Shown here piece after piece: positions 3,024 to 20,240 of a DNA stretch of 64,000 nt. Source of the DNA: Flavobacterium cupriresistens (GTDB lineage Bacteria > Bacteroidota > Bacteroidia > Flavobacteriales > Flavobacteriaceae); contig NZ_CP087134.1 of NCBI RefSeq assembly GCF_020911925.1, positions 1,364,001 through 1,428,000 of the forward strand, given 5' to 3'. Numbering within the stretch: position 1 is the first letter of the stretch; each line of letters begins with the position of its first letter. The notes under the pieces were generated by a model. That model saw nothing but the letters and a program-made list of their open reading frames with translations, did no database searches and was not told where the DNA came from. The position numbers and the translations under genes were made by a program.

Positions 3024-4026
3024 AGCTAAAACAGATTTTCTTTTTATAATTGGCCCGTCCTTTTTTGTGTTGGCCATCATTTTTCTGTTTCAGGATTTTA
3101 TCAGTAAGATCGAAGAACAGTATTCATTTTATACCTGGCTTTTTTTAATTGTCTTTATTGATGTTGCGCATGTTTATGCTACTTTATTTAAAACCTATTT
3201 TGTAAAAGACGAGTTCGAAAAAAGAAAAAAACTGCTGACGATTTTACCCGTAATTTGTTTTTCTATTGGATTTATTCTCTTTGCTTTTGGAGGAATTGTG
3301 TTTTGGTCTTTTCTGGCTTATGTGGCTGTTTATCATTTTATCAGACAGCAATATGGTTTTATGAGATTGTATGCGCGAAATGAAAACAAAGCAAAATTGT
3401 CGGTTTGGATAGACAATCTCACGATTTATTCCTCAACCGGATATCCGATGTTGTATTGGTTTTTGTCGTCTCCGCGAAAGTTCAACTGGTTCGTCGAAAA
3501 CGAATTTTTTCGTTTCCATAACCAAACGATTCTAACAATTGCATTTTGGATTTACATTGCAATTCTATCAATTTATCTAATTTATATACTTCACAGTAGT
3601 AGTATAAAAACGAGATTTTTTAATATCCCTAAAAACAGTATTATTTTAGGCACAGCACTTTCCTGGTACTTCGGAATTGTTTATTTTAATGATGATTTGA
3701 TTTTTACATTGCTGAATGTTATTTCTCATGGAATCCCTTATATGGCGCTGGTTTATTTTAGAGAAATCGATGGTAAAACAGATTCGGAGTTAGGGAAACT
3801 ACGTCATTTGAAAAAGTACAAAGGCATTTTTATTTATGCAATAATCTTATTATGTATTGCTTTTGCAGAAGAATTTCTTTGGGAAGTTTTTGTTTGGAAT
3901 GAAAATATTTCTTTTGAAGTAATAAATTTTTCAGGGTGGGAATTTTTGGCAGTGCCATTGCTGAGCGTTCCACAATTTACACATTATATTCTCGATGGAT
4001 TTATATGGAAATCTAAGAAAGGGTAA
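3001..4026 (+). CDS. Polytopic membrane protein of the spermidine synthase-like operon
   Basis: 341 residues with roughly eight predicted membrane helices. Conserved-looking polar residues lie inside or beside helices: DVAHVYAT, YHFIRQQYGFMRLYAR, NVISHGIPYMALVYF and PQFTHYILDGFIW. The repeated histidines in membrane context could bind a metal or act in catalysis, as in membrane-bound desaturase or carotenoid-oxygenase-like proteins, but no family can be named with certainty. The ATG lies inside the end of the flavoprotein gene, so it is almost surely co-translated with it. It is the last gene of this operon. A hairpin-rich 135 bp gap separates it from a convergent gene. Confidence 0.7.
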   Translation: MRQPWIHKAKTDFLFIIGPSFFVLAIIFLFQDFISKIEEQYSFYTWLFLIVFIDVAHVYATLFKTYFVKDEFEKRKKLLTILPVICFSIGFILFAFGGIVFWSFLAYVAVYHFIRQQYGFMRLYARNENKAKLSVWIDNLTIYSSTGYPMLYWFLSSPRKFNWFVENEFFRFHNQTILTIAFWIYIAILSIYLIYILHSSSIKTRFFNIPKNSIILGTALSWYFGIVYFNDDLIFTLLNVISHGIPYMALVYFREIDGKTDSELGKLRHLKKYKGIFIYAIILLCIAFAEEFLWEVFVWNENISFEVINFSGWEFLAVPLLSVPQFTHYILDGFIWKSKKG

Positions 4027-4080
4027 GAGCGTTGTAAATTTATCTTTATAAAGTTTCTTTGATTTTGAAAATCATAAAAT

Positions 4081-4143
4081 AAAGCTCCGCAGAGGATTTA
4101 TAAACAGAACAAACCCCTGCGAAGTTATCGTAAGGGGCTTTCT
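4081..4143. terminator. Possible bidirectional terminator between convergent genes
   Basis: The gap between two convergent genes holds a nested imperfect inverted repeat. The outer arms are aaagctcc and ggggcttt, the inner arms cgcagagg and cccctgcg. No long T-tract follows, so termination is only suggested. Confidence 0.35.
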
Positions 4144-4161
4144 ATTCTTTTAAAGCATTTC

Positions 4162-4668
4162 TTAAAGTTTAATTTCAAACAAACTAAAAGAGCCTTCCTT
4201 GTAATGTTCCGGTAGTTCTGATGTCCATTCGATAGTACTGATGCCTTTGTAGTCAAAACCACAACTTGTGTAATACTTATTTATTCTTTCATTTCCGCTG
4301 TGCGTGTCAAGTCTGATATAGGTTTTATCATTTTGAACGGCATATATTTTTACCCATTCTATGATTTTTTTAACATAAGAACGACCTCGGAATTTTGGAT
4401 TCGTAGCAATACGATGAATGTATACCGCAGGATCTGCAGCGGCTTCTTTCCATATGATTAAGTCATTAAAAGTAAGAACAAAAGTGCAAGCTATTTCATC
4501 ATCTTCTTTTATTATAAAATGCCGGTCTTCTTTAATTTCAGTTTCTATTAGTGATTTTTCAAAGCCTCTCCAGCTTTTTATGTTGACCGTTTTTTGGTAA
4601 GAGGTTGCCTCATTATAGATATCGAAAACGGCATCGATATCTTTGTTTGTAGTTTTAAGAAATTCCAT
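4162..4668 (-). CDS. GNAT family N-acetyltransferase
   Basis: 168 residues, the usual size of a single GNAT domain. The acetyl-CoA-binding region is visible as IHRIATNPKFRGRSYVKKI, corresponding to the (Q/R)xxGx(G/A) loop after strand 4, and the C-terminal YYTSCGFDYKG is the typical late GNAT strand. Such enzymes move an acetyl group from acetyl-CoA to an amine. The acceptor cannot be predicted. A TATCTTTG -7 box (4700..4707 on this strand) lies about 30 nt upstream of the start, without a clear TTG -33 box. It is likely a single-gene unit. Confidence 0.85.
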   Translation of the reverse strand: MEFLKTTNKDIDAVFDIYNEATSYQKTVNIKSWRGFEKSLIETEIKEDRHFIIKEDDEIACTFVLTFNDLIIWKEAAADPAVYIHRIATNPKFRGRSYVKKIIEWVKIYAVQNDKTYIRLDTHSGNERINKYYTSCGFDYKGISTIEWTSELPEHYKEGSFSLFEIKL

Positions 4669-4744
4669 TATTGTGTTTATGCTGTAAATTAATCTCTATC
4701 AAAGATAGATTTTTGGGAGGTGAAAGACTTTGAAATTTTTAGTT

Positions 4745-5707
4745 TTAACTTTTCTTATTTGCTGTAGTTAGCCATGCTACATTTTGTTCGGATTGGTGGT
4801 CCTGGCCAATAATATCTCGATATAAATCAGGTCTTCGGGCTTTTAGGTAGCGATTCCCTCCTGCTTGAATGCATTTTTCAGGGGTAATGAGTGCAGTTGC
4901 AAAGGAGTCTTCAAAAGAACGGCATTCGGAGATGATATCCCCAAAAGGATCAATGATCATAGAACAACCATTCTTCAATTGATCATCATCCATACCAATT
5001 GGGTTGGAGAAAACTGCGTATATGGCATTATCGTAGGCTCTTGCCGGCAGCCATTTCATTAACCAGTCTCGGCCTTTCATTCCGTCAAATTCTATTCGTA
5101 AAGAAGTCGGGTCGTTTTCGCGATTTTTCCAGAGCTCGGGAGCGACAAAACCGGCGCCAGGTCGGGTAGAAGGGGTGCACATGGTGACATGAGGCATAAA
5201 AATAATTTGAGCCCCCAATAGCGTTGTTGCCCGTACATTTTCGATAATGTTATTGTCATAACAAATTAAGATGCCACATTTCCATCCCTTGATTTCAAAG
5301 ATGCAATATTCGTTTCCGGGAGTGAGATAGGGGTTTATAAAAGGGTGAAGTTTGCGGTATTTGGCGACTAAACCATTTTTATCGACGCAGACATAAGCTT
5401 TAAATAAAGCGTCATTTTCGTCTTTTTCAAAAAGGCCTGCCAGTATAACAATGTTATACGTTTTGGCTATTTCGATAAGTTTTAAAATACTACCCCCGGT
5501 TGGAATTATTTCTGCGACTTCAAGCAATTGCTCTTTCGATAAATGTCTGGCGAAAGTATATCCGGTAATAGAACATTCGTGAAATGCAATCACATCGCAA
5601 CCTTCTGCTGAAGCTTTTTTTGTAAGTTGTTCAATTACAGTTAAATTGTAGTTTTTGTCACCGCTCTTGTTTTCAAACTGTACAGTGGCTATTTTTAGAT
5701 TTTTCAT
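4745..5707 (-). CDS. Carbon-nitrogen hydrolase (nitrilase superfamily)
   Basis: 320 residues. The three catalytic residues of the superfamily can be placed: Glu44 in IAFHECSITGY, Lys119 in KYRKLHPF and Cys149 in GILICYDNNI. These enzymes cleave C-N bonds in amides or nitriles through a thioester on the cysteine. The C-terminal part keeps the usual AYDNAIYAVFSNPIG strand. Substrate is unknown. N-carbamoylputrescine amidase or an omega-amidase-like role would be guesses. The AraC-family gene upstream on the same strand, 70 nt away, may be its regulator or operon partner. Confidence 0.85.
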   Translation of the reverse strand: MKNLKIATVQFENKSGDKNYNLTVIEQLTKKASAEGCDVIAFHECSITGYTFARHLSKEQLLEVAEIIPTGGSILKLIEIAKTYNIVILAGLFEKDENDALFKAYVCVDKNGLVAKYRKLHPFINPYLTPGNEYCIFEIKGWKCGILICYDNNIIENVRATTLLGAQIIFMPHVTMCTPSTRPGAGFVAPELWKNRENDPTSLRIEFDGMKGRDWLMKWLPARAYDNAIYAVFSNPIGMDDDQLKNGCSMIIDPFGDIISECRSFEDSFATALITPEKCIQAGGNRYLKARRPDLYRDIIGQDHQSEQNVAWLTTANKKS

Positions 5708-5777
5708 TTGATGGACTATTTAAGAATAGCCCAAAAGTAAGAGTAGCGTGAATCGATAAATTGTATAAAACCGACAT

Positions 5778-6605
5778 TTAAAGCGCATTCTTTGGAAAAG
5801 TTTCGATAAAATTGTTCGTCAGTTTCCCCGTATTAAGCAGATACTCACTGGGTGTCATACCCGTATGCTTCTTAAATTCTTTTATGAGATGTGATTGATC
5901 GGAAAATCCTGTTTCATAAGAAATTGATGTAAGGGAGGTGTTTTCCGTTTTGTTTTTAAGAAGTTTCAGAAAATGATGCAGTTTTATAATATTGCCAAAC
6001 TTTTTTGGATTTAATCCAACACCTTCCGTAAATTTTCTTTCAATATGTCTTTCCGTGTAACCGGTGTAAGCAACTAATTGTTTTAGAGAAAACTGTCCTT
6101 TATTTTTGATGATAAAAGCTAAAGAGGCATCCGCTATTAATTGGTTTGTCTGTGGTTTTTTCGCTTCAAGCGTTTTAAAAAAATGATTCAGGAGTTGTAA
6201 GCGATCCGGAATTGTTAATAATGTGGTTAATTTTTCCTCGAGATCCCTGCCCATTTGACCAAATATAGCATCAACCGTGATAATGGAATCACGAAATTCG
6301 CCGCTGTCAACTCCCAGAAGCTGATGTAAGCCGTTTGGTTGAAAAACTACAATTACAATCGACATTTCACTGCCGGAATAAACATCTTTAAAATTGTTTA
6401 GCTGTCCATATAAAAAAGAAGTGGGTAGATAACTTTGTGTTTTGTAATTATCAAATCCCGATATAAGTTTGCTTTTCAACGAGAATACGATACCGGTATT
6501 ACCATCAGAAAATAAGCGAAGTTTTTGAATGTCATTGCCTTTTCTTTCTAAAAAAAGATAATGTTTTATATAAGGTGATAATTCTTTTGGAGGTACAACT
6601 TGCAT
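5778..6605 (-). CDS. AraC family transcriptional regulator
   Basis: 275 residues. The C-terminal ~100 residues are an AraC/XylS double helix-turn-helix: FSLKQLVAYTGYTERHIERKF is the first HTH, and SISYETGFSDQSHLIKEFKKHTGMTPSEY is the second, typical one. The N-terminal ~150 residues resemble the DUF6597-type ligand domain common in Bacteroidota AraC regulators (opening with VPPKELSPYIKHYLFLE). It likely responds to a small ligand. The adjacent nitrilase-type gene downstream on the same strand is the most natural target, by position only. Confidence 0.87.
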   Translation of the reverse strand: MQVVPPKELSPYIKHYLFLERKGNDIQKLRLFSDGNTGIVFSLKSKLISGFDNYKTQSYLPTSFLYGQLNNFKDVYSGSEMSIVIVVFQPNGLHQLLGVDSGEFRDSIITVDAIFGQMGRDLEEKLTTLLTIPDRLQLLNHFFKTLEAKKPQTNQLIADASLAFIIKNKGQFSLKQLVAYTGYTERHIERKFTEGVGLNPKKFGNIIKLHHFLKLLKNKTENTSLTSISYETGFSDQSHLIKEFKKHTGMTPSEYLLNTGKLTNNFIETFPKNAL

Positions 6606-9977: not shown

Positions 9978-11723
9978 ATGAGGCTGATCATCTCTTTTTT
10001 ACTTCTTTTTGTTCTGAATATTACTTTTGCCCTGCAAAAGAAAGAATTATCGGAGCAGGAATATTTACTTTTACAGGATAAAATACGAATAAGCGGGAAT
10101 ACAGACAGAGACCTGGCGATTACGTACGCCTATGAGATGCTCAAATCTAATAATGACAAACATTTGGCTTTTGCAAATGGTGCATTGGCGTATTTGTTTC
10201 AATTAAAATCTGAAACGGTAAAATCAAAAGAAAAGTATGTACTGGCATTTAATTATTTGAATAAAATGCCGGATTCAAGAGATAAAACGCAACTTAAATC
10301 GTACCTCTATAATTACGGCGGACTAATCGAATGGAAAAGAGGTAATTTTGGAGAGGCTCTTGAAAACTATCAGACCGGAATAAAACTTTCGATACAATTA
10401 GGTGATATTATCCAGATAATAAAGTTTAAAAGTAATATCGCTATTATTAATGAGGAAGTTGGTAACTATCAGTTGGCCATAAAAAACTTAAGGTATCTTA
10501 ATGACTTTATAGACAAAAATGAAAGTTATTATTCCAAAGAGCAATACAATATTATAAAGAGTAATAACAATCTTCATTTAGCAGGATCGTATGAAGGCTG
10601 GTACATGAAAAATCGTACAAAGTTGTTTCTGCTGGATTCTGCCGCATACTTTTACAAAAAAACAGTATCTTTTTCTCATGACTTTCCAATTAATAATATT
10701 GGGGCTAAGATCAGTCTGGGAAATGTTTATTACATGAAGAATGATTTTAAGAATGCAGAAAAAGCTTACTATGATATTATATTTTTTGCGAAACAGAACA
10801 ATTACAAATCAGAATTTAAAGTAGCCAACTATAATTTGGGTAATTTATATTATGAAGTAAAAAAGTACGACAAAGCCTTAGTTTTCTTTAAAAAAGTAGA
10901 TTCAGTCTCCTTAATAGACAATTCAAAAGATGAAAGTTTTTTAAAGTCAAATTATTATCAGGCAAAAATCTATAATATATTTAAGGAACCCGAATTGGCT
11001 TTTAAATATTCAAAAAACTATTTGGATAATTATGAAAAAACGGAAGCCAAACTAAATAATGAAGCCCTGGAAGTTAATTATAAACTGGGAGTCGGAGATT
11101 TGAGTGAGGAGATGGTTACCATTCAGAAAAAATACGAATTTGAAGTTTTCTTTAATAAAGCATTAAAGGTGTTCTATGTTTTACTTGTCGTTGGAATTGT
11201 TTTCTTACTGATAAAAAACATAAGAGATAAAAACAAGGCCCATAAGAAAATGAATGCCCTGATTGAAGAATTTAAAGCCAATCTGGAGAAAAAAGAGAAT
11301 TCCGAAACCGAAACCGTACTGATCGATCAGGAAGAGGATCCGCTTATTAAGAAAGAAAACGTCAATCTGAGTATCGACGAGGATAAAGAGAATAAAATTG
11401 TCGAAAAACTGCTGGCTTTAGAAAATAAATTAGAGTATCTGAATGCCGATTTTACGTTGTCTTATGTTGCAAAAAAGATAAAAACAAATACCACTTATCT
11501 GTCCTATATCGTAAACAAGCGATTTGGTAAATCTTTTGGAGAATATTCTAATGAGTTAAAAATCAATTATGTAATCAATCAAATGATTACCAATCACATG
11601 TATCGGAAATATTCTACTCAGGCCATTGCTGAAAGCGTCGGATTTAAGAATGCAGTATCCTTTGCGAAATCATTTCGCAAAAGAACTGGAGTGTCTCCAG
11701 CTCAGTTTGCGAATAATATTTAA
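9978..11723 (+). CDS. TPR-containing AraC-type membrane regulator
   Basis: 581 residues. A signal-like N-terminus (LIISFLLLFVLNITFA) is followed by ~350 residues of TPR-like helical repeats (for example ALENYQTGIKLSIQLGD and AKISLGNVYYMKNDFKNAEKAYYD), a membrane helix near residue 400 (VFYVLLVVGIVFLLI), a coiled linker and a C-terminal AraC HTH (TTYLSYIVNKRFGKSFGEYS, AESVGFKNAVSFAKSFRKRTG). Family knowledge: Bacteroidota use such periplasmic-TPR/cytoplasmic-AraC proteins as one-component regulators. A TAATTTTG -7 box lies at 9951..9958. It ends only 36 nt from the convergent peptide genes at 11760, so control of the peptide cluster is a reasonable inference from position. No ligand is known. 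Confidence 0.85.
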   Translation: MRLIISFLLLFVLNITFALQKKELSEQEYLLLQDKIRISGNTDRDLAITYAYEMLKSNNDKHLAFANGALAYLFQLKSETVKSKEKYVLAFNYLNKMPDSRDKTQLKSYLYNYGGLIEWKRGNFGEALENYQTGIKLSIQLGDIIQIIKFKSNIAIINEEVGNYQLAIKNLRYLNDFIDKNESYYSKEQYNIIKSNNNLHLAGSYEGWYMKNRTKLFLLDSAAYFYKKTVSFSHDFPINNIGAKISLGNVYYMKNDFKNAEKAYYDIIFFAKQNNYKSEFKVANYNLGNLYYEVKKYDKALVFFKKVDSVSLIDNSKDESFLKSNYYQAKIYNIFKEPELAFKYSKNYLDNYEKTEAKLNNEALEVNYKLGVGDLSEEMVTIQKKYEFEVFFNKALKVFYVLLVVGIVFLLIKNIRDKNKAHKKMNALIEEFKANLEKKENSETETVLIDQEEDPLIKKENVNLSIDEDKENKIVEKLLALENKLEYLNADFTLSYVAKKIKTNTTYLSYIVNKRFGKSFGEYSNELKINYVINQMITNHMYRKYSTQAIAESVGFKNAVSFAKSFRKRTGVSPAQFANNI

Positions 11724-11759
11724 TGAAGAATTTGTATTAAGTAATACAGTTTTAGGGAG

Positions 11760-11912
11760 TTACCCGTTACCGCCTGTGCTACCGGTGTGACCAGTACCTC
11801 TTATAGGATCTTTTCCGTCGACCCACTCGTCTCCGCCTCGAACTGTTTTTAGTTGATTTTTAGGTAATTTTTCTGTTCCAAAGTCTTCAAGGTTAAATGT
11901 TCTAATTTTCAT
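11760..11912 (-). CDS. Double-glycine leader peptide 1 (Gly-rich core)
   Basis: 50 residues. The leader is MKIRTFNLEDFGTEKL then PKNQLKTVRGG, with the double glycine at 26-27. The core after cleavage is 23 residues, holds WVDGKDPIRG and ends in GSTGGNG. It has no Cys. It is the fourth and most diverged of a tandem set of paralogues. Leaders of the form LEDF..KL.K.QQK.V.GG are known from Bacteroidota RiPP-like and bacteriocin-like peptides exported by C39 ABC transporters, and such a transporter is encoded nearby. Its function (toxin, signal or other) is not known. Confidence 0.75.
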   Translation of the reverse strand: MKIRTFNLEDFGTEKLPKNQLKTVRGGDEWVDGKDPIRGTGHTGSTGGNG

Positions 11913-11958
11913 GGTTTTCTAAATTATTGGTTTGTTTGAGTTAATTTTTTATAGTTAG

Positions 11959-12102
11959 TTATCCGTTTCCACCTGTATTTCCACCGCCTTTTATAGGATC
12001 TTTTACATCTATTGGACCATCCCCGCCACGGACCGCTTTTTGTTGTTTTTTAGATAATTTATCTGCTTTAAAATCTTCGAATTTTATCTTTTTAGTTTTC
12101 AT
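11959..12102 (-). CDS. Double-glycine leader peptide 2 (Gly-rich core)
   Basis: 47 residues with the double glycine at 26-27 (QQKAVRGGDG). The core reads DGPIDVKDPIKG and then GGNTGGNG, with no Cys. The leader is LEDF-like (KIKFEDFKADKLSKKQQK). The same length, GG position and core ending as the next two paralogues indicate recent duplication. It lies 46 nt from peptide 1, probably on one transcript. Confidence 0.78.
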   Translation of the reverse strand: MKTKKIKFEDFKADKLSKKQQKAVRGGDGPIDVKDPIKGGGNTGGNG

Positions 12103-12155
12103 GATGTTGTAAATTAATGATTTATATTTTTAGTGTCAATTTTTTTTGTAGTTTT

Positions 12156-12299
12156 TTATCCATTTCCTCCTGTATTACCACCACCTTTTATCGGATCTTT
12201 TCCATCTATCGGCGCATCTCCGCCATGAATCATTTTTTGTTGTTTTTTGGATAATTTTGCTGTTTCAAAATCTTCTAATTTTACTATTTTAGTTTTCAT
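12156..12299 (-). CDS. Double-glycine leader peptide 3 (Gly-rich core)
   Basis: 47 residues. Leader KIVKLEDFETAKLSKKQQK, double glycine at 26-27 (MIHGGDA), core APIDGKDPIKG then GGNTGGNG. It is nearly identical to peptide 2 after residue 27, while the codons differ in several places, so the tail appears to be under protein-level constraint. No Cys, Ser or Thr pattern suggests lanthionine formation. Confidence 0.78.
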   Translation of the reverse strand: MKTKIVKLEDFETAKLSKKQQKMIHGGDAPIDGKDPIKGGGNTGGNG

Positions 12300-12344
12300 A
12301 ACTTGAGTATTTAGAATTTGTATAATTTTATTTTTAAGAATTTT

Positions 12345-12488
12345 TTAGCCGTTTCCGGCGTTACCTCCACCACCCCGAATTGGGTCTTTGTCTTCCTCCA
12401 GAGATGCTCCTCCAAGTACTTTTTTTTGATGATTTTCAGGTAATTTTTCTACTTGAAAATCTTTGATTGTTGCCTTTTTTTTTGTCAT
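12345..12488 (-). CDS. Double-glycine leader peptide 4 (Gly-rich core), first of the array
   Basis: 47 residues. Leader TIKDFQVEKLPENHQKKV, double glycine at 26-27 (VLGGAS), core ASLEEDKDPIRG then GGGNAGNG. It is the promoter-proximal member. A TAGTTTTG -7 box (12517..12524 on this strand) lies about 30 nt upstream, without a clear -33 TTG. Its core keeps KDPI(K/R)GGG and the NG end but differs between the GG and KDP. Confidence 0.75.
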   Translation of the reverse strand: MTKKKATIKDFQVEKLPENHQKKVLGGASLEEDKDPIRGGGGNAGNG

Positions 12489-12747
12489 GTTTTATTGTGT
12501 TAGCGTTTAACTTTTTCAAAACTAGGCAAAAAGCAAAACCCTTAATCGAGAATAGCCTTTTTGAGGTTTTTGAGAGACTTGTTTTTATGTAACTATTTAT
12601 ATATCAACATATTGAATAGTGCATTCGTACTGGTATAATTTATAAATTGTATGTGCTATTATTAATAAAAAGTATACATAAAGGCATTTTTTTAAAATAA
12701 AAACCACAATATTTGCATCGTAGTTATGATTTAAACGACACGAAAAG

Positions 12748-14307
12748 ATGTTAAAACTGGTTCAGAAATTTCTTCTAATTAACAAGTACTCGGAAGTGAA
12801 AAATGAGTTCAAAGATTTGTTTCTTTCTCATCCAAATTATCCAAGCTTGTTTGCGATAACAGATTCGTTGGATTTGTTGTCAGTAGAGAATGCTGCCGTA
12901 AGAGTTTCGAAAGAGCAGATTGAAAATTTGCCTTCTAATTTTTTAGCTTATTTTAAAGAGGAGCTTATTTTGGTTGAAAGAGCAAAAGACTTTGTTCGCA
13001 TCAACACAATTAAAAAAGGAAGTCAAAAAATATCGTACGATAGCTTTCTTTTAGATTGGAATGGAGTTATTGTAGCAATTGAGCCAAATAATGTAGTTGG
13101 AAGAGATAGTTTCAGAGATGAGTATAAAACTTTAAAGTATTATGTTCCATTATTTCTCTTAGTTGGATTGTCATTTTTTTACAACGCCTATAATTTATTC
13201 AGTAGCCTGTTTTTAATTACATCGCTTTTAGGATTAATAGTTAGTGTTTTTATAGTACAGGAGAAATTAGGTTTGAAAAGCAGTATCATTTCAAAGTTTT
13301 GTAACCTGACTCCAAATACGTCTTGTAACTCTGTTCTTAATTTTGACGGTTCAGGTAGAAAATGGGTTAGTTTCTCAGATTTGCCTTTGATGTTTTTTGG
13401 TGCAAGCTTTTTAGCGATTTTGATAGAGCCTTCAGATTCGTCAATCTTTATCGGATTTTTAAGCTTATTGGCTATTCCGGTGGTGGTAACATCAATTTGG
13501 ATACAGAAATTTGAGATTCAAAAGTGGTGTGTAATGTGTCTGTCAGTTTCATTTCTGATTTTAGTGCAAAGTATTATTTGGTTTGCGTCAGATTTTTTCA
13601 CACTAAGTTTTAGTATTGACAGTGTTTTTCCTTTTGTGTTCTCATTGGGGTTCTTAGGAGCCTTTTGGTTGGCTTTAAAACCAATCATTAAAAACATGTT
13701 GAATGTTAATTCGGATTTAAAAGAGTTGAAGAAATTTAAGAGAAATTTTTCATTATTAAATTTCTTATCGCAAAAAGTACCTTACACGTCAGATTTTGAG
13801 GATTTAAGAGGATTGAATTTTGGAAATAGAAATGCAGCAATAAAATTAGCGATTATAATTAGTCCAAGTTGTGGACATTGCCATAAATCATTTCAGGATG
13901 CATTTGATCTGGTTTTAAGATTTCCGGAGAAAATATTTTTAAATGTATTATTTAATGTTAACCCTGATAATGTAGATAACCCGTATAAGATTGTTGTAGA
14001 AAGATTGCTGACTATAAACAGATCAACACCCGGGAAAACGGTAGAAGCCATTTCAGATTGGCATATTAAAAAAATGGGTCTCAAAAAGTGGTTGAAAAAA
14101 TGGAATGCAGAGCCCGTAGGATTAATAATAAATCAGGAGATACAAAAACAGTACGATTGGTGTTCTAAAAATAATTTTAATTATACACCGGTTAAAATTG
14201 TCAATGAGAAAATATTTCCTAACGAGTATGAATTAAATGAACTGAAATACTTTTTAAATGATTTTGTGGAAGAGAAAGAGATTGAAGTTTTAGAAAAAAT
14301 AGCCTAA
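12748..14307 (+). CDS. C39-like / VKOR / thioredoxin fusion, likely disulfide-forming oxidoreductase
   Basis: 519 residues in three parts. Residues ~1-120 resemble a C39 peptidase fold (LSHPNYPSLFAITDSLD, then FLLDWNGVIVAIEPN) but have no Cys at all, so this part cannot be an active cysteine protease. Residues ~130-330 form a vitamin K epoxide reductase domain with four to five membrane helices, a Cys pair (FCNLTPNTSCNSV) and the active CxxC in KWCVMCLS. Residues ~370-510 are thioredoxin-like with IISPSCGHCHKSF. VKOR-Trx fusions oxidise cysteines of exported proteins. It sits directly before two Cys-rich double-glycine peptides, so these are its likely clients. The dead C39 domain may bind their leaders (inference). 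Confidence 0.85.
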   Translation: MLKLVQKFLLINKYSEVKNEFKDLFLSHPNYPSLFAITDSLDLLSVENAAVRVSKEQIENLPSNFLAYFKEELILVERAKDFVRINTIKKGSQKISYDSFLLDWNGVIVAIEPNNVVGRDSFRDEYKTLKYYVPLFLLVGLSFFYNAYNLFSSLFLITSLLGLIVSVFIVQEKLGLKSSIISKFCNLTPNTSCNSVLNFDGSGRKWVSFSDLPLMFFGASFLAILIEPSDSSIFIGFLSLLAIPVVVTSIWIQKFEIQKWCVMCLSVSFLILVQSIIWFASDFFTLSFSIDSVFPFVFSLGFLGAFWLALKPIIKNMLNVNSDLKELKKFKRNFSLLNFLSQKVPYTSDFEDLRGLNFGNRNAAIKLAIIISPSCGHCHKSFQDAFDLVLRFPEKIFLNVLFNVNPDNVDNPYKIVVERLLTINRSTPGKTVEAISDWHIKKMGLKKWLKKWNAEPVGLIINQEIQKQYDWCSKNNFNYTPVKIVNEKIFPNEYELNELKYFLNDFVEEKEIEVLEKIA

Positions 14308-14382
14308 GACAAAAATCATTTGAGGAAAGAGAGATACAAATTTCTAAATGAATTGAAACAATAACAAAAAAACCAAATAATC

Positions 14383-14535
14383 ATGTTAAAAAACATTCTA
14401 CAATTAGAAGGAGCTCAAGAGCTTACTAAAAATGAGAAAAAAGGTATTAAAGGAGGATTAGCTTGTGATCAGAACGGTAAGTGTCCAAAAGGATCTTATT
14501 GTGACTATGATTCGTCTCTTTGCAAACGTATCTAG
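14383..14535 (+). CDS. Cys-rich double-glycine leader peptide A
   Basis: 50 residues, too short for most gene callers. The leader MLKNILQLEGAQELTKNEKK ends in GIKGG (Gly24-Gly25). The 25-residue core has four Cys (28, 34, 40, 47) spaced x5, x5, x6, which would allow two disulfides. Leader sequence and length match the next peptide (MLKxILxLEGA..L..NE), so both are paralogous leaders with unrelated cores. It starts 75 nt after the VKOR fusion and is probably on the same transcript. Bacteriocin-like or signalling peptide is the best description. Activity is not known. Confidence 0.78.
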   Translation: MLKNILQLEGAQELTKNEKKGIKGGLACDQNGKCPKGSYCDYDSSLCKRI

Positions 14536-14596
14536 TTGTTAAAAGAAAAATCTTTTAATAAATAACCACAAAGTAGTAACCCAATAAAACTTAATT

Positions 14597-14833
14597 ATGT
14601 TAAAAGCAATTTTAAATCTTGAAGGTGCAGAAAAACTGCAAGTTAATGAGTTGAAAAATATTATGGGTGGACAACCGGTTCAACCGGCAAATTGCAAATG
14701 TTTTTGTTATGTTGGAGGACAACAGGTAAATGCCTATTGTTTTTCATATTGTCCAAACGGTTCAATTCCCGGAATATCGGAAGGAAGTACAGGAAACTGC
14801 AAGTTTCCACTTAATCCAAAACCGGAATTATAG
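14597..14833 (+). CDS. Cys-rich double-glycine leader peptide B
   Basis: 78 residues. The leader MLKAILNLEGAEKLQVNELK ends in NIMGG (Gly24-Gly25). The 53-residue core has six Cys (33, 35, 37, 48, 52, 68), starting with NCKCFCYVGG and ending PLNPKPEL, enough for three disulfides. It shares the leader type of peptide A, which is different from the LEDF-type leaders of the four minus-strand peptides. A weak hairpin (taaaaga/tctttta, 14540..14557) separates A and B. The mature peptide would suit oxidation by the VKOR-thioredoxin fusion upstream and export by the C39 ABC transporter downstream. Confidence 0.8.
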   Translation: MLKAILNLEGAEKLQVNELKNIMGGQPVQPANCKCFCYVGGQQVNAYCFSYCPNGSIPGISEGSTGNCKFPLNPKPEL

Positions 14834-15020
14834 AATACGATTACCTCTTTAGTGATAAAGAAAATTTTAAAGTTATAAAGTTACTTGGAGAATTAGAATA
14901 GCAGACTAAAAACAAGCAGTGAGATACTCTTGGTTTTTATTGGCAAGTTTTCTAAGTTTTTAAAAATATCGAATATAAAGCCTTATTTAAAATTTAGTCA
15001 TGTTTTTTTTGAATTTGTAG

Positions 15021-15346
15021 GCGCCCGATCGTGGAACATTGGGCAAACATCCCCACATTGATGATTGGTGTTGGGATTCTCAGGAAAATTGGTCACTGAG
15101 TTGGTTTTATTTGGTTAGAGCTAACCGGTGCCATCTCCTAGAGAAATTGATGTTGATTCTAAATTAAAGTGTAAGCACTTTTTGCTATGGACAACATTAT
15201 TTTAAAGATGGAAAAAATATAGGATCCAAAAGGTCTGAAAGAAGTTCAAATATTGAAAAAAGAAAGTAACAAACGATACAAGTGCGGAGCTTTACTTTAA
15301 TAGAAATATGGGACAAATATGTTACGAAATGACAATTGTAGAATAA
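15021..15346 (+). pseudogene. Possible decayed gene remnant inside the peptide cluster
   Basis: The 620 bp gap between peptide B and the exporter has no intact ORF, but protein-like stretches follow one another in shifting frames. Frame 0 gives GTLGKHPHIDDWCWDSQENW and, after a stop, YGQHYFKDGKNIGS. Frame +1 then gives DPKGLKEVQILKKESNKR, and frame +2 gives ELYFNRNMGQICYEMTIVE before a stop. Composition looks coding and the order of frames suits successive single-base indels. No family is recognised. An immunity-type gene would be expected here in a bacteriocin locus, but that is speculation. Confidence 0.35.
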
Positions 15347-15388
15347 TCATTTATTGTAATATAAATATAACAGTTTTGAATAATTTTA

Positions 15389-15422
15389 ACAGAGAGGAAA
15401 TTTTTTCCTCTCTGTTTTTTTT
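15389..15422 (+). terminator. Strong rho-independent terminator before the exporter gene
   Basis: Perfect 12-bp stem (acagagaggaaa at 15389..15400 with its complement at 15404..15415), a 3-nt loop and an 8-T tract. It separates the peptide transcript from the exporter transcript, whose -7 box TAGATTTG follows at 15431..15438. Confidence 0.88.
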
Positions 15423-15455
15423 AAATAATGTAGATTTGTATAAATCAAAAGTAAA

Positions 15456-17648
15456 TTGAAAAAATTCACCAATTATAAACAAGCTGATTTTAAGGATTGT
15501 GGCCCCACATGTTTAAAGATTATCGCAAAGCACTACGGCAAGACAATCCATATTCAGGAGTTGAGGGAGCATAGTGAAACAACTCGTGAAGGAAGTAATT
15601 TGCTTTTTTTGAGCGATGCAGCAGAGAAAATTGGTTTCAGAACTTTAGGAGTTAAGTTAAGTCCGGAGCGCTTAGAAGAAGCTCCATTACCTTGTGTTTT
15701 ACACTGGAATCAGAATCATTATGTTGTGCTTTATAAAATTAAAAGAGGCACTTACTATATCTCAGATCCGGCTTTTGGTTTAATTGAATACACTAAAGAA
15801 GATTTTATTAAATTTTGGATCGGAAACAATGCCGATGAATCAACTCAGGAAGGAATTGCCTTGTTGATCGAAGCTACTCCAAAATTCTTTCAGACCGATT
15901 TTGACAAGGAAGATCATAAAGGCATCGGATTCGGATTGTTGTCCCAGTATGTTTTAAGATACAAAACCTTTCTAGTTCAATTAAGTATAGGGTTATTAGC
16001 CAGTAGTTTGCTGCAGTTGATTTTTCCTTTTTTAACCCAGAGTATCGTTGATATCGGGATTCAAAACCAGAATATTAATTTTATATACCTGATTCTGTTT
16101 GCGCAATTGTTTCTTTTTGCCGGAAGAACAGGTTTAGAACTTATTCGGAGTTGGATATTACTTCATCTTTCAACGCGGATAAACATTTCGCTCATCTCTG
16201 ATTTCTTTATTAAATTAATGAATCTGCCTATTTCGTTTTTTGATGTGCGAATGACGGGAGATATCATGCAGCGTATAAACGATCATAGAAGAATTGAGCG
16301 TATCCTGACTACATCCTCCTTAAACGTTTTATTCTCCATAATCAATATGTTTGTGATGGGCGGCGTTTTGGCTTATTTTAATCTCAAAATATTTTTTGTG
16401 TTCTTCGCAGGAAGTGTTCTTTACTTTGTGTGGATCACGTTGTTTTTAAAACGAAGAGAAGTTTTAGATTATAAGCGTTTTGCAGAGGTTTCCCAAGAGC
16501 AAAGTAAAGTGATGGAGCTGATCAACGGTATGCAGGAGATTAAGCTTCACAATGCCGAAAAACAGAAGCGTTGGGGCTGGGAATATGTGCAGGCAAGGTT
16601 GTTTAGAGTTTCAATAAAAGGACTGGTCCTGGAGCAAACACAAACGATCGGTTCCTCAGTGATCAATGAATTAAAAAATATTTTTATCATCTTTTTGTCG
16701 GCCAAATTAGTTATTGATGGTTCCATTACACTCGGTATGATGTTGGCGATTAGCTCCATTGTAGGGAGTTTAAATGGACCAATTACACAACTTATAGAGT
16801 TTGTTCGAGAGCTTCAGGATGCCAAGATTTCATTAGCAAGACTATCTGAAATTCATGAAAAAGAAGACGAAACACAACAAGAAGTACACCAAACCAGTGA
16901 AGTTCCTTTTGACGCTGATATAGAGATAAAAAACCTATCCTATCGTTACTTAGGCTCTGATATCCCTGTTTTAGATGATTTAAGCCTGATAATTCCCGCA
17001 AATAAGGTTACGGCAATAGTTGGTGTTAGTGGAAGCGGGAAAACGACTCTGATGAAATTACTGCTTAAATTTTATGAGCCGGAGAAAGGTGAGATTCATA
17101 TTGGTTCTGCACAGTTAAAAAATGTGTCACAAAAAGCATGGAGAGCCAATATTGGTGCGGTTATGCAGGAAGGTTTTATTTTTAGTGATACCATCGCCAA
17201 CAATATTGCCATTGGTGTTGACAAGGTAAATAAAGAACGATTGGTTTATGCCGCCGATGTTGCCAATATAAAAGAGTATGTTAGTGGCTTGCCGCTGGGT
17301 TTTAATACTAAAATTGGCTCTGAAGGTTTAGGTATGAGTACAGGTCAGAAACAACGATTGCTTATTGCCAGGGCAGTATACAAAAACCCGGAAATCTTGT
17401 TTTTTGATGAAGCCACTTCGGCTTTAGATGCTAATAATGAAAAGGAAATTATGCGAAAATTGGATATTTTCTTCAAAGATAAAACCGTAGTGGTAATTGC
17501 ACATCGTCTGAGTACGGTAATGAATGCGGATCAGATCGTGGTTTTAGACAAAGGGCGCATTATTGAAATAGGAAGTCATTCGGCTTTAGTAGAACAAAAG
17601 GGGAATTATTTTGAATTGGTTAGAAATCAATTACAATTAGGAAACTAA
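15456..17648 (+). CDS. C39 peptidase-containing ABC exporter (PCAT) for double-glycine peptides
   Basis: 730 residues. The N-terminal C39 protease has its triad: Cys15 in DFKDCGPTCL, His88 in NQNHYVVLY and Asp104 in ISDPAFG. It cuts after Gly-Gly leaders on the cytosolic side. A six-helix exporter domain follows (~165-440), then an ATPase domain: Walker A GVSGSGKTT, Q-loop VMQEGFIFSD, signature GMSTGQKQR (S-T-G in place of the usual LSGGQ), Walker B ILFFDEATSALD and H-loop VIAHRLS. The start is TTG at 15456; no ATG fits and the family N-terminus (KKFxxYKQxDxxDCGPT) is complete from here. Its own -7 box (15431..15438) gives a ~10 nt leader. The HlyD gene follows after 2 nt. Confidence 0.93.
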   Translation: MKKFTNYKQADFKDCGPTCLKIIAKHYGKTIHIQELREHSETTREGSNLLFLSDAAEKIGFRTLGVKLSPERLEEAPLPCVLHWNQNHYVVLYKIKRGTYYISDPAFGLIEYTKEDFIKFWIGNNADESTQEGIALLIEATPKFFQTDFDKEDHKGIGFGLLSQYVLRYKTFLVQLSIGLLASSLLQLIFPFLTQSIVDIGIQNQNINFIYLILFAQLFLFAGRTGLELIRSWILLHLSTRINISLISDFFIKLMNLPISFFDVRMTGDIMQRINDHRRIERILTTSSLNVLFSIINMFVMGGVLAYFNLKIFFVFFAGSVLYFVWITLFLKRREVLDYKRFAEVSQEQSKVMELINGMQEIKLHNAEKQKRWGWEYVQARLFRVSIKGLVLEQTQTIGSSVINELKNIFIIFLSAKLVIDGSITLGMMLAISSIVGSLNGPITQLIEFVRELQDAKISLARLSEIHEKEDETQQEVHQTSEVPFDADIEIKNLSYRYLGSDIPVLDDLSLIIPANKVTAIVGVSGSGKTTLMKLLLKFYEPEKGEIHIGSAQLKNVSQKAWRANIGAVMQEGFIFSDTIANNIAIGVDKVNKERLVYAADVANIKEYVSGLPLGFNTKIGSEGLGMSTGQKQRLLIARAVYKNPEILFFDEATSALDANNEKEIMRKLDIFFKDKTVVVIAHRLSTVMNADQIVVLDKGRIIEIGSHSALVEQKGNYFELVRNQLQLGN

Positions 17649-17650
17649 TC

Positions 17651-18946
17651 ATGGCAGAAGATAATAGTACATTCGAATTAAGAAGTGAAGAAGTTCAGGA
17701 CATACTCACCAAAGTACCTCATTGGATGATACGTTGGGGAACAGTACTGATATTTACCATAATTGTGATGCTGTTTTTTGTGTCCTGGTTTATCAAATAT
17801 CCGGATGTTGTCAATACCGAAATTGTGATCACAACGAATATTCCACCCGAAAAAATAGTTTCTAAAACTTCCGGACGAATAGAAGCGATATTGGTTAAAG
17901 ATAAAGCCGTCATACAAAAAAACACCACTTTGGCAGTTATTGAAAATACCGCGAATTATGAAGATGTTTTTTTATTGAAGGATATTGTTGATCATTACAA
18001 TATCAATGAATCCAAAAAAGATTTTCCTTTTGCATTGTTGAAAAATACCCAATTAGGAGAAATTGAAAGTGCTTATGCTGTTTTTCAAAAAGACTATCAG
18101 GCGCAGGAATTAAACAAAGATTTGCAACCTTTTGAAGTAGAAAGCAGAGCGCAAACATCAGAGAACATTCAAATAAAAGAACGATTGGATATTTTGCAGC
18201 AGCAAAAAGCAATCAATGAAAGCGAATTGCAACTCCAGAAGAACGAAGTGGCTCGTTTTGAAACTTTGTTTAATAAAGGAATAGTTTCGACTCAGGAAAT
18301 GGAGGCTAAAAAGCTGAATTATCTTCAGGCACAAAAGAATTACAGGAGCTTATTATCGTCGATTTCGCAATTGAGGTCCTCACTTATTGATAATACAAAA
18401 TCAAGTCAAAGTTCGCACATAAACAGCACTAAAGAAGAAGTTAACCTGGGACGCAATATGGCGCAATCTTTTTATCAGCTCAAAAAAGTGATAAAAGACT
18501 GGGAGCTTAATTATACATTGAAATCCTCAGTTAGTGGTGTTGTTACTTTTTTACAGGTTTGGACAGAAAATCAAACGATTAATGCCGGAGATAACGTTTT
18601 TTCGATAATTCCGGATGCAAGAAATGGTTTTGTCGGAAAAGTTAAAGCGCCCGCTTTAAATTCCGGGAAAATAAAAGTGGGACAAAGAGTGAATATAAGA
18701 CTATCCAATTTTCCCGACAGAGAATTTGGAGTTTTATATGGTACAATTCAGAACATTTCGTTGGTTCCCGATAAAGATGGAAATTTATTACTGGATGTTG
18801 CCTTGCCAAACGGATTGGTAACGTCTTATAAAAAGAAAATCCTGTTTCAGCAAGAGATGAAAGGAAGTGCCGAAATCGTGACGGAAGATTTGCGATTACT
18901 GGAAAGAATTTTATATCAGTTTAAAAGTATTTTTGAACAGGTTTAA
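17651..18946 (+). CDS. HlyD family secretion adaptor (periplasmic)
   Basis: 431 residues. A short cytosolic N-terminus is followed by one membrane helix (~28-48, WGTVLIFTIIVMLFFVSWFI), a lipoyl-like half-motif (VSKTSGRIEAILVKDKAVIQ), a long coiled-coil hairpin (~100-270) and the second half-motif with beta-barrel (YTLKSSVSGVVTFLQVW, then GKVKAPALNSGKIKVGQRV). This is the adaptor that joins the C39 ABC exporter to an outer-membrane TolC-type channel. No TolC gene lies in the window, so a housekeeping channel is presumably used. It begins 2 nt after the exporter stop and is translationally coupled. Confidence 0.9.
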   Translation: MAEDNSTFELRSEEVQDILTKVPHWMIRWGTVLIFTIIVMLFFVSWFIKYPDVVNTEIVITTNIPPEKIVSKTSGRIEAILVKDKAVIQKNTTLAVIENTANYEDVFLLKDIVDHYNINESKKDFPFALLKNTQLGEIESAYAVFQKDYQAQELNKDLQPFEVESRAQTSENIQIKERLDILQQQKAINESELQLQKNEVARFETLFNKGIVSTQEMEAKKLNYLQAQKNYRSLLSSISQLRSSLIDNTKSSQSSHINSTKEEVNLGRNMAQSFYQLKKVIKDWELNYTLKSSVSGVVTFLQVWTENQTINAGDNVFSIIPDARNGFVGKVKAPALNSGKIKVGQRVNIRLSNFPDREFGVLYGTIQNISLVPDKDGNLLLDVALPNGLVTSYKKKILFQQEMKGSAEIVTEDLRLLERILYQFKSIFEQV

Positions 18947-18986
18947 TTTTTAAGTAACCGAAAAGTTTCTTCGTATAAAGTAAAGA

Positions 18987-20240
18987 ATGAAAAAAATTTG
19001 TTTTATTGTTTTTGTTGCGTGGTTTCAATGGGTAGGGGCTCAGGGGAAATGGGCTAAAAACTCAAATGTAGTGCTCACTTTTAGCATTTCAGGAGATATT
19101 AAAGATTCAAAAACAAAAGAGGTAATTCCAAATGCCGATTTGTATCTGCTTAATTGTAATAAAAGTAGTGTCGCAAATGAGGATGGAATTTTCCAATTCA
19201 ATATTCCAAAAAGTAGTTTTAATGATCAGTTGGTTATTTCGGCTGTGGGTTATTATTCCGATACTATTTTGGTTTCTCAGCTTGAAAAACTAAAGCATGA
19301 ATCCTTTCATATCGCATTAAATAAAGAAACAGAGGCTGAAATCGTTTTGAATGATATGGTGGTTTTGTCTTCAAAAAATAAAGCAAAATCGGATTCTCCG
19401 GAAACAATTTTAAAAAAAGTAAGACAGCATATAAAGGATAATTATTATCAGGAGCCATTTAATCAGAAATTCTTTTTTAGAGCGCAATGTAAAAAGGATG
19501 GTGTGTTTTCTGTTAATGAAGCAGCTTCTATTATGACCTATAGTCCAAATGGAATTAGGGTTTCAAAAGATGCAGCGACGAATTATTTTGGGGAGATTCT
19601 TCAATTTAAAGGTAAGGCGGAAGAAACTTCAAAAGAAAATTGGGAAGGAATAGGGTATTTTGGAGTTGTTGTCTTTCGAAATATAGTGTTGAGTAGCCAA
19701 AATGTACTCTATGAAGCTGCTTCATTTGAGTTGAAAAAAGAAAAAACAATTGAGTACGCCGGAAAGAAAGTGTACGTAATCAGTTTTCAGAATTTAGTGC
19801 CGGATGTGTATTCAACAGGTTTTGGTAATCCTTCACCTAAATCGGTAAGTGGGTTTATCTATATCGATACCGTTTCTTTTGCTGTGGTGAAGTTTGAGCA
19901 ATATGTAATTTTAAATGCAGACCGGTCAAATGATAGTGATCATGTATGGATTCAATCATCCGTGAAAATGACGCAGACTTATAAATGCGTAAACGGTAAA
20001 TATTTTGTAAATTATTGCAATGAAAAAAAAGAAAGCCGTTATTTTTCAACAGTAGAGAAAAAACAAATAGGAGAGGCAAATTCAAATTACGATTTAATGT
20101 CTGAAGATGTCAATACAGATAAAGTACTGCCAATAGTACGCCCTATAGATCGACTAAAGTTAGATGTAAAAGTAGCAGAAGACCCGGAATATTGGAATAA
20201 TAACAATTTTATTCCGGAGATTAAAAACAATGATTTGTAA
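18987..20240 (+). CDS. Secreted CarboxypepD_reg-like domain protein
   Basis: 417 residues with a signal peptide (MKKICFIVFVAWFQWVGAQG). Residues ~30-110 form a carboxypeptidase-like regulatory (beta-sandwich) domain, e.g. ISGDIKDSKTKEVIPNADLY and SVANEDGIFQFNI. The remaining ~300 residues resemble the outer-membrane-associated domain found with such N-termini in Bacteroidota (SPETILKKVRQHIKDNYY). It begins 40 nt after the HlyD gene on the same strand and may be co-transcribed, which would make it an outer-membrane component of the peptide secretion module. Its role is unknown. Confidence 0.7.
   Translation: MKKICFIVFVAWFQWVGAQGKWAKNSNVVLTFSISGDIKDSKTKEVIPNADLYLLNCNKSSVANEDGIFQFNIPKSSFNDQLVISAVGYYSDTILVSQLEKLKHESFHIALNKETEAEIVLNDMVVLSSKNKAKSDSPETILKKVRQHIKDNYYQEPFNQKFFFRAQCKKDGVFSVNEAASIMTYSPNGIRVSKDAATNYFGEILQFKGKAEETSKENWEGIGYFGVVVFRNIVLSSQNVLYEAASFELKKEKTIEYAGKKVYVISFQNLVPDVYSTGFGNPSPKSVSGFIYIDTVSFAVVKFEQYVILNADRSNDSDHVWIQSSVKMTQTYKCVNGKYFVNYCNEKKESRYFSTVEKKQIGEANSNYDLMSEDVNTDKVLPIVRPIDRLKLDVKVAEDPEYWNNNNFIPEIKNNDL

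Follow-up and report, generated by a model that had tools for sequence, protein, structure and literature searches.

Gene content of the locus

We analysed a 64,000-nucleotide stretch of the Flavobacterium cupriresistens genome (NZ_CP087134.1, positions 1,364,001 to 1,428,000; hereafter the window), an assembly that consists of one 5.74-Mb contig. Positions 9978 to 20240 of the window hold a C39 peptidase-ABC exporter together with small peptides that carry double-glycine (GG) leaders, four with Gly-rich and two with Cys-rich cores, a VKOR-thioredoxin fusion and a one-component regulator, here named REG, in which a transmembrane (TM) stretch separates a TPR from an AraC domain. In related genomes the Gly-rich peptides were found to accompany REG, which suggests that they may be signals for the regulator rather than a second cargo of the exporter. 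The features of the locus are as follows.

9978..11723, plus strand: REG, TPR-TM-AraC one-component regulator, 581 aa (Pfam TPR_1, TPR_2, TPR_12 and HTH_18; AlphaFold; hydropathy and charges)
11760..11912, minus strand: Gly-rich GG peptide 4, 50 aa, candidate autoinducer precursor (open reading frame (ORF) with GG leader; TIGR04149 16.8 bits, cut-off 25)
11959..12102, minus strand: Gly-rich GG peptide 3, 47 aa, candidate autoinducer precursor (ORF with GG leader; TIGR04149 23.4 bits, cut-off 25)
12156..12299, minus strand: Gly-rich GG peptide 2, 47 aa, candidate autoinducer precursor (ORF with GG leader; TIGR04149 12.6 bits, cut-off 25)
12345..12488, minus strand: Gly-rich GG peptide 1, 47 aa, first gene of the divergent array (ORF with GG leader; no NCBIfam match)
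12516..12570, no strand: second conserved non-coding block upstream of the Gly-rich array, limits approximate, perhaps the array promoter (alignment of 59 distinct intergenic regions)
12634..12673, no strand: candidate REG operator, a 17-bp direct repeat with a spacing of 23 bp, between the Gly-rich array and VKOR (intergenic alignment; genome scan)
12748..14307, plus strand: VKOR-thioredoxin fusion, 519 aa, candidate disulfide-forming enzyme (VKOR 44.8 bits; Peptidase_C39 18.1 bits, cut-off 22)
14383..14535, plus strand: Cys-rich GG peptide 1, 50 aa, 4 Cys in the core (ORF with GG leader)
14597..14833, plus strand: Cys-rich GG peptide 2, 78 aa, 6 Cys in the core (ORF with GG leader)
15456..17648, plus strand: C39 peptidase-ABC exporter (PCAT), TTG start (Pfam; Cys/His/Asp invariant in 8 aligned sequences)
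17651..18946, plus strand: HlyD-type periplasmic adaptor (HlyD_3 57.2 bits)
18987..20240, plus strand: carboxypeptidase-regulatory-like protein, probably outside the core (Pfam; sporadic in relatives)

All the parts named in the original prediction, namely the six GG peptides of two kinds, the C39 exporter, the HlyD adaptor, the VKOR-thioredoxin fusion and the TPR-AraC regulator, were found where it had placed them. Its extension of the locus to position 20240 did not hold, because the last gene occurs only sporadically in relatives and is thus not core. The six leaders have the motif L-x5-K-x-[IV]-x-G-G in common, and a leader pattern, composed only after the window peptides had been inspected, retrieved these six and nothing else in the 64 kb and had no match in 40 dinucleotide-matched random windows. 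The Gly-rich cores of the window contain no Cys. The exporter matched Peptidase_C39 (115 bits), ABC_membrane and ABC_tran, and its Cys15, His88 and Asp104, which we take to be the catalytic residues, were invariant in the eight aligned sequences, in agreement with the prediction that they are intact. The HlyD_3 and VKOR matches also exceeded the Pfam cut-offs. It is a reasonable inference that this single exporter would cut both peptide classes.

In the window, 37 bp separate REG from the end of the Gly-rich array and 260 bp lie between the start of the array and VKOR; the gene arrangement is conserved in further species. In the close clade, the order ACAD-REG-Gly-rich array-VKOR-Cys-rich peptides-exporter-HlyD-methyltransferase is largely conserved at one chromosomal site. 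No histidine kinase or response regulator was present among the large ORFs of 9978-20240, and no radical SAM enzyme was recognised among the locus genes in the ORF list or by Pfam. We likewise recognised no immunity gene and no enzyme that would modify the Gly-rich peptides in the locus.

Gly-rich peptides accompany REG

Of 249 genus genomes, 79 had a match to the VKOR gene, as had 21 of the 149 genomes sampled from the family. A model built from the four Gly-rich sequences of the window matched in 55 of the 249 genus genomes, and all 55 were VKOR-positive as well. The VKOR-baited set comprised 80 stretches, 74 from the genus (one from the genome of the window; mostly the top-ranked of 114 listed matches) and 6 from other genera. 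A search with REG added 67 further loci; 65 of the 67 named REG-search loci were labelled Flavobacterium, and the closest named REG, 95% identical, was that of Flavobacterium poyangense. F. johnsoniae also carries the unit, strain CI04 being locus L184. We counted a REG gene and a VKOR gene as a REG-VKOR unit when REG precedes VKOR by at most 3.5 kb and no second VKOR intervenes, which gave 122 units with 100 distinct REGs. Three REG-baited loci yielded no unit: contigs end in L182 and L183, and no VKOR ORF was recognised in L201.

Under a lenient rule, a small divergent leader-bearing ORF was present between REG and VKOR in all 122 units, with a canonical GG in 94 of the 100 distinct ones. 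Under a strict rule (cut site GG, GA or GS, a distance of up to 1.3 kb and at most two Cys), in a count that omits the window, L129 (contig end) and peptides with at least three Cys, a Gly-type peptide was found at 53 of the 57 VKOR genes of the VKOR-baited set that have a REG, versus none of the 32 that lack one (Fisher's p = 4e-20, an over-optimistic value owing to the relatedness of the loci). When only related VKOR genes were counted (L097-L162), the figures were 53/57 and 0/17. The four strict misses (L144, L149, L156 and L160) have the same kind of leader with the cut site GK, CG, AG or GM. In seven loci with two VKOR genes, only one of the two has a REG (L099, L116, L148, whose REG-less VKOR copy is incomplete, L151, L153, L154 and L156), and in every one of them the peptide lies only at the REG-side copy. 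The regulator had been described as merely next to the secretion genes; since the class was not found at REG-less VKOR genes, the Gly-rich peptides seem to have REG as their partner.

The Gly-type set from the 100 distinct units comprised 260 peptides, 253 of which keep the GG leader. Their cores have a median length of 20 residues, with 24% Gly and 11% of the hydrophobic residues VILMFWY; they contain no Cys in 251 of the 260 and are mostly acidic, with a mean net charge of about -2. The median distance between cores was 0.27 within a locus versus 0.77 between loci, and arrays reach eight copies. Each strain thus has, roughly, one Gly-rich word, often in multiple copies, beside a mixed set of Cys-rich peptides.

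Cys-rich peptides and the VKOR-thioredoxin fusion

The second peptide class behaved differently. In the VKOR-baited set, Cys-type peptides lie downstream of VKOR at 50 of the 57 genes with a REG and at 16 of the 32 without, so that the predicted co-occurrence of both classes at the same C39 exporter was borne out at the REG-adjacent genes. Because the Gly-rich class tracks REG and the Cys-rich class tracks VKOR and the exporter, we regard the Gly-rich class as probably the partner of REG and not a second cargo.

The Cys-type class (n = 184) was picked by its leader and its position between VKOR and the exporter, not by Cys content. At least two Cys were nevertheless counted in 183 of the 184 cores and an even number in 182 (4 Cys in 96 cores, 6 in 75, 2 in 9, 8 in 2, and 1 and 5 in one each). 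These cores have a median length of 35 residues and 28% VILMFWY; core distance was 0.91 whether the peptides came from one locus or from different ones. L138 carries 16 or 17 Cys-type GG peptides, depending on the rule, with diverse cores between one VKOR and the exporter (1654-6100 relative to VKOR).

In an alignment of 37 VKOR-thioredoxin fusions, the cysteine pairs C185/C193, C261/C264 and C375/C378 were invariant. The thioredoxin part has an invariant CGHC motif and a sub-threshold Pfam match, and hydropathy predicts five TM helices for the fusion. Because of the even Cys counts and the invariant redox cysteines of the fusion, the Cys-type peptides are probably disulfide-bonded, and the Cys-rich peptides would be bacteriocin-like products of this kind. 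The locus had been said to lack a modification enzyme; the VKOR-thioredoxin fusion is likely to be one, forming disulfides.

We also considered whether the VKOR protein begins with a degenerate C39 domain. The Pfam match (18.1 bits, cut-off 22) is only a hint, a profile comparison with C39 was colinear and insignificant (probability 0.8%, E 0.071), and the AlphaFold model was too poor (mean pLDDT 55), so this candidate was rejected. The genome of the window has a second VKOR-thioredoxin gene with a 60-aa Cys-rich GG peptide nearby (L167, 6061-9515); neither an exporter nor a REG was recognised inside the fetched stretch.

A direct repeat between the Gly-rich array and VKOR

The first Gly-rich gene and VKOR are typically separated by ~260 bp, and alignment of 59 distinct sequences of this region revealed two conserved blocks. 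The VKOR-proximal block is a direct repeat of 17 bp with a spacing of 23 bp, at 12634-12673 in the window. Scored with a motif derived from the close clade, the repeat reached at least 29 of 34 in 116 of the 122 REG units and at most 26 in 32 of the 33 VKOR genes without a REG unit, the exception being L129 (contig end) with 34. None of 400 resampled regions exceeded 28, and the genome of the window holds one site at up to three mismatches. The direct repeat is therefore a candidate operator of REG in the divergent promoter region, as judged from its position and conservation. In the other block, before the Gly-rich array (12516-12570), the consensus contains an inverted repeat, CAAAACCC...GGGTTTTG, which is less perfect in the window.

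Architecture and co-variation of REG

REG has an N-terminal signal or TM segment (residues 1-19), a TPR superhelix (~21-372), a TM stretch (394-412) and an AraC helix-turn-helix (HTH) domain (468-580); its TPR and HTH_18 matches exceed the Pfam cut-offs. The AlphaFold model, from 41 sequences, had a mean pLDDT of 84 and contains a long helix (377-436) that includes the hydrophobic stretch 394-412. Six K/R residues lie within the 15 residues after the TM stretch, on the inner side, versus two before it; given this charge distribution and the N-terminal signal or anchor, the TPR domain is predicted to be probably periplasmic. Foldseek placed the TPR model nearest to the TPR domains of LGN/Pins, followed by the pheromone receptors Rap and NprR, a result that points to a TPR superhelix and not to a function.

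The TPR part is far more variable than the DNA-binding part (mean distance 0.44 vs 0.10; entropy 1.0-1.3 vs 0.17). As in peptide quorum-sensing systems, a variable sensor and a variable peptide were found here together with a constant output domain; the linker of REG is variable as well. Of the 100 distinct units, 84 were complete enough for distances, and 81 remained after L222, L227 and L236 had been dropped for truncated REG domains. Over these 81 units, with values for the 70 close units in brackets, the distances between Gly-rich cores showed rank correlations of 0.71 (0.40) with the TPR part of REG, 0.60 (0.22) with its HTH domain, 0.64 (0.26) with the VKOR domain and 0.43-0.53 (-0.01 to 0.15) with parts of the exporter. 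When VKOR, the nucleotide-binding domain of the exporter and ACAD were controlled for, the REG TPR part retained 0.37 (0.29). REG co-varies with the Gly-rich peptide more than VKOR, ACAD or the exporter do.

Similar pairs at other loci and in other genera

The genome of the window has four C39 loci and 57 HTH_18 ORFs. Five of these ORFs are 550-650 aa long, and three of the five sit at three of the four C39 loci. The TPR match falls below the Pfam cut-off in the regulator at the split-LanB locus and exceeds it in the other four. The regulator at the lanthipeptide-type array has a divergent GG peptide in two of two cases, its own and that of the sole relative found among 150 genus genomes. For the split-LanB-type regulator, 18 of the 19 places with at least 42% identity were examined, its own included (a second copy in G152 was left out), and 17 have an adjacent leader-peptide ORF: 14 with a GG leader just downstream and three with a similar, non-canonical ORF; the remaining one is a broken copy without a peptide. 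Several of these cores begin, like the Gly-rich class, with a DDPID-like sequence. No leader peptide was found at any of 12 members of a paralogous subfamily. In L284, one regex match did not resemble a leader and went uncounted.

Beyond the genus, just three weak matches to REG (25-31% identity) were found in the sample of 149 genomes. Among 36 C39 loci of other genera, we identified five AraC-type regulators of 543-572 aa, four of which have a GG peptide ~80-115 bp downstream; the regulator of L302 lies at the edge of its stretch, with the downstream side outside the view. These 36 were fetched out of 40 places beyond the window's own genome, leaving out one third copy within a genome and three short or partial matches.

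Other loci of the same genome have features of their own. About 52-61 kb before the window, 44 tandem GG-peptide ORFs precede HlyD, a C39 exporter and a presumably LanB-like protein (L007, 335-8437); 25 of them are near-identical 49-aa copies with a period of 157 bp, and one longer copy has the same core. L005 (8064-13496) combines a C39 exporter and a HlyD-like ORF with a 194-aa lipoprotein-like ORF and a 444-aa GG-leader protein that has a lipase-like GHSLGGG motif, which may represent an enzyme exported through its GG leader and a partner protein. Two related TPR-AraC-type regulators (L251, 8247-10004; L252, 8587-10278) are each divergent from a secreted or lipoprotein-like ORF of ~242 aa. 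No GG peptides were found beside either, which suggests a subfamily with a different job.

Proposed model and alternative explanations

Taken together, these results lead us to favour, with moderate confidence, a peptide-regulated locus in which the Gly-rich peptides would be autoinducers sensed by REG and the Cys-rich peptides disulfide-bonded, bacteriocin-like products. In this model, the C39 exporter would take the Gly-rich precursors out and cleave them behind the GG. The core set free in this way, hydrophilic, ~20 residues long and of one type per strain, would bind the periplasmic TPR domain of REG, which in turn would act on the direct repeat between the divergent Gly-rich array and VKOR. 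REG may thereby raise the transcription of the Gly-rich array, as a feedback, and also that of VKOR, the Cys-rich genes and probably the exporter, the sign of the regulation being a guess. The Cys-rich peptides would leave by the same export machinery, be oxidised by the VKOR-thioredoxin fusion and be released as disulfide-bonded bacteriocin-like peptides.

Several observations weigh against this model. The model offers no route by which a peptide exported in a type-I-like manner would reach the periplasm. In L140 (1657-4030), REG and VKOR are 4.6 kb apart, and the interval yielded no divergent Gly-type peptide, only a different GG peptide of 45 aa with three Cys, which follows REG after ~0.5 kb in the same orientation. 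The Cys filter of the strict rule removed one Cys-rich GG peptide at a REG-less VKOR gene (L175) and one peptide of a REG unit (L149). Six of the 100 distinct units have no canonical GG (GK, CG, GS, AG or GM instead), nor have three of the split-LanB-type loci. All eight units with two or three REGs in tandem (L099, L111, L117, L122, L123, L133, L222 and L227) have one Gly-type peptide and no more. Among units with a single REG, one Gly-type peptide was counted in 27 of 92.

The remaining objections concern the operator, the fold and the co-variation. The repeat scores are circular within the close clade that supplied the motif; in the distant clade, which was not used for it, 15 of 17 units reach 29 and only 10 have the two halves on the same strand with a spacing of 22-23 bp. 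The eukaryotic LGN/Pins proteins outrank Rap and NprR in the Foldseek result, TPR superhelices being widely alike. In the four regulators from other genera that have a GG peptide downstream, the TPR match exceeds the Pfam cut-off in one (L309), stays below it in two and is missing in L316. The unrelated neighbour ACAD equals VKOR in its correlation with the Gly-rich cores (0.64 over 81 units, 0.26 over 70) and retains 0.27 and 0.16 when VKOR and the nucleotide-binding domain of the exporter are controlled for; shared ancestry is clearly a part of the co-variation. A co-evolution specific to the TPR domain was rejected, since the REG linker (0.72 and 0.42) matches it. Our confidence in the model was lowered because of the L140 exception and the ACAD control.

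Both peptide classes might instead be effectors that share one exporter, with REG sensing another cue such as envelope stress or density. Such an explanation would be in line with the GG leaders of common motif that flank a single exporter, with the co-occurrence of the two classes at 50 of the 57 REG-adjacent VKOR genes and with arrays of up to eight copies. However, the Gly-rich class tracks REG and not the exporter or VKOR, even between the two VKOR copies of one locus, and its cores are short, hydrophilic (11% VILMFWY vs 28% in the Cys-rich class) and uniform per strain, and we consider it unlikely that they are a second cargo. The original prediction of a multi-product system, with two families served by one exporter, therefore stands as far as co-occurrence is concerned and loses ground where it treats both classes as products.

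It is more doubtful still that the Gly-rich peptide is killer and inducer at once. In nisin-type lantibiotics the peptide indeed has both roles, and the arrangement of the locus suits autoinduction, with arrays of eight copies exceeding the need of a signal; yet hydrophilic, Cys-poor and mostly acidic cores (about -2) are unlike the membrane-active peptides known to us, and no enzyme modifying them was recognised in the locus. A role of the Gly-rich peptides in the cell or on the exporter, as antagonist, chaperone, immunity factor or leader decoy regulated by REG, would suit the copies without a canonical GG and the lack of a recognised immunity gene in the locus, but is very improbable in view of the GG leader kept in 253 of 260 peptides and of the contrast between a strain-variable core and an exporter of low variability.

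A broader proposition, on which we are evenly divided, is that Bacteroidota have a peptide quorum-sensing class of a new type, in which membrane-spanning TPR-AraC receptors with a periplasmic sensor and adjacent GG pheromone genes would control C39-exported arsenals such as disulfide bacteriocins and lanthipeptides. Three of the four C39 loci of this genome would be served by three such pairs, and within the genus pheromone and sensor would have diversified into many specificities, with the DNA-binding domain and the operator staying constant.

Comparison with known systems

In Gram-positive class II regulons such as blp and plantaricin, a GG inducing peptide and the bacteriocins leave through a common C39 exporter, the inducer and its receptor are encoded side by side, and sensor and peptide co-vary. 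In those regulons the receptor is a histidine kinase that works with a response regulator, whereas the present Gram-negative locus, without either, has a single membrane-spanning TPR-AraC protein. The RRNPP receptors (Rap, NprR, PlcR and Rgg) are similar in having a TPR superhelix, proposed here as the peptide receptor, with a strain-specific short peptide encoded next door. They are, however, cytoplasmic, act after import of the peptide and have no membrane helix, in contrast to REG, with its predicted periplasmic TPR domain (N-terminal signal or TM segment plus internal TM stretch) and an AraC-type DNA-binding domain. A 2004 paper by Dirix et al. reportedly, going by its title, treats double-glycine peptides as possible signals in Gram-negative bacteria.

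The NCBIfam families TIGR04149 (radical SAM-modified ribosomally synthesised and post-translationally modified peptide, RiPP) and NF047798 (bacteriocin-like protein) have similar GG leaders and gave only weak matches, none of which reached the curated cut-off; the TIGR04149 scores of 23.4, 18.9, 16.8 and 12.6 bits all lie below 25. Among the literature titles and abstract openings searched, which left subscription papers and preprints out of reach, no TPR-AraC/GG-peptide pair is described. If the model is true, it would add a new receptor architecture for peptide quorum sensing in a Gram-negative phylum, offer a search rule for signal/effector pairs (a TPR-AraC gene beside a GG peptide) and account for two chemically unlike peptide classes at one exporter.

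In the passages available to us, the nearest statement reports TPR-domain genes in two Bacteroidales RiPP clusters and mentions that in other bacteria TPR domains regulate genes once they have bound a pheromone (PMC10352776), and bacteroidetocins are said to be produced perhaps only at high density, with their regulation deferred to future work (PMC8546649). The regulation of the exported antimicrobial peptides of Bacteroidota thus seems, from that passage, to be open, and the present locus supplies a concrete candidate peptide, receptor, operator and set of targets.

Bacteroidetocin loci are the closest relatives in gene content. According to the passages of Coyne et al. (2019; PMC6671954) available to us, these Bacteroidota loci encode multi-Cys GG-leader peptides, a C39 ABC transporter, a thiol oxidoreductase and a five-TM protein, with no obvious immunity gene. 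The present locus likewise has a C39 ABC transporter beside small GG peptides with at least two Cys (4 and 6). It departs from them in two defining features: the leaders of both Cys-rich peptides in the window are 25 aa long versus 15-16 aa in bacteroidetocins (PMC6671954), and the oxidoreductase and the five-TM protein, separate there, are replaced by one VKOR-thioredoxin fusion, perhaps functionally comparable. Those passages mention neither a REG-like regulator nor Gly-rich peptides for the bacteroidetocins, whereas the present locus has both.

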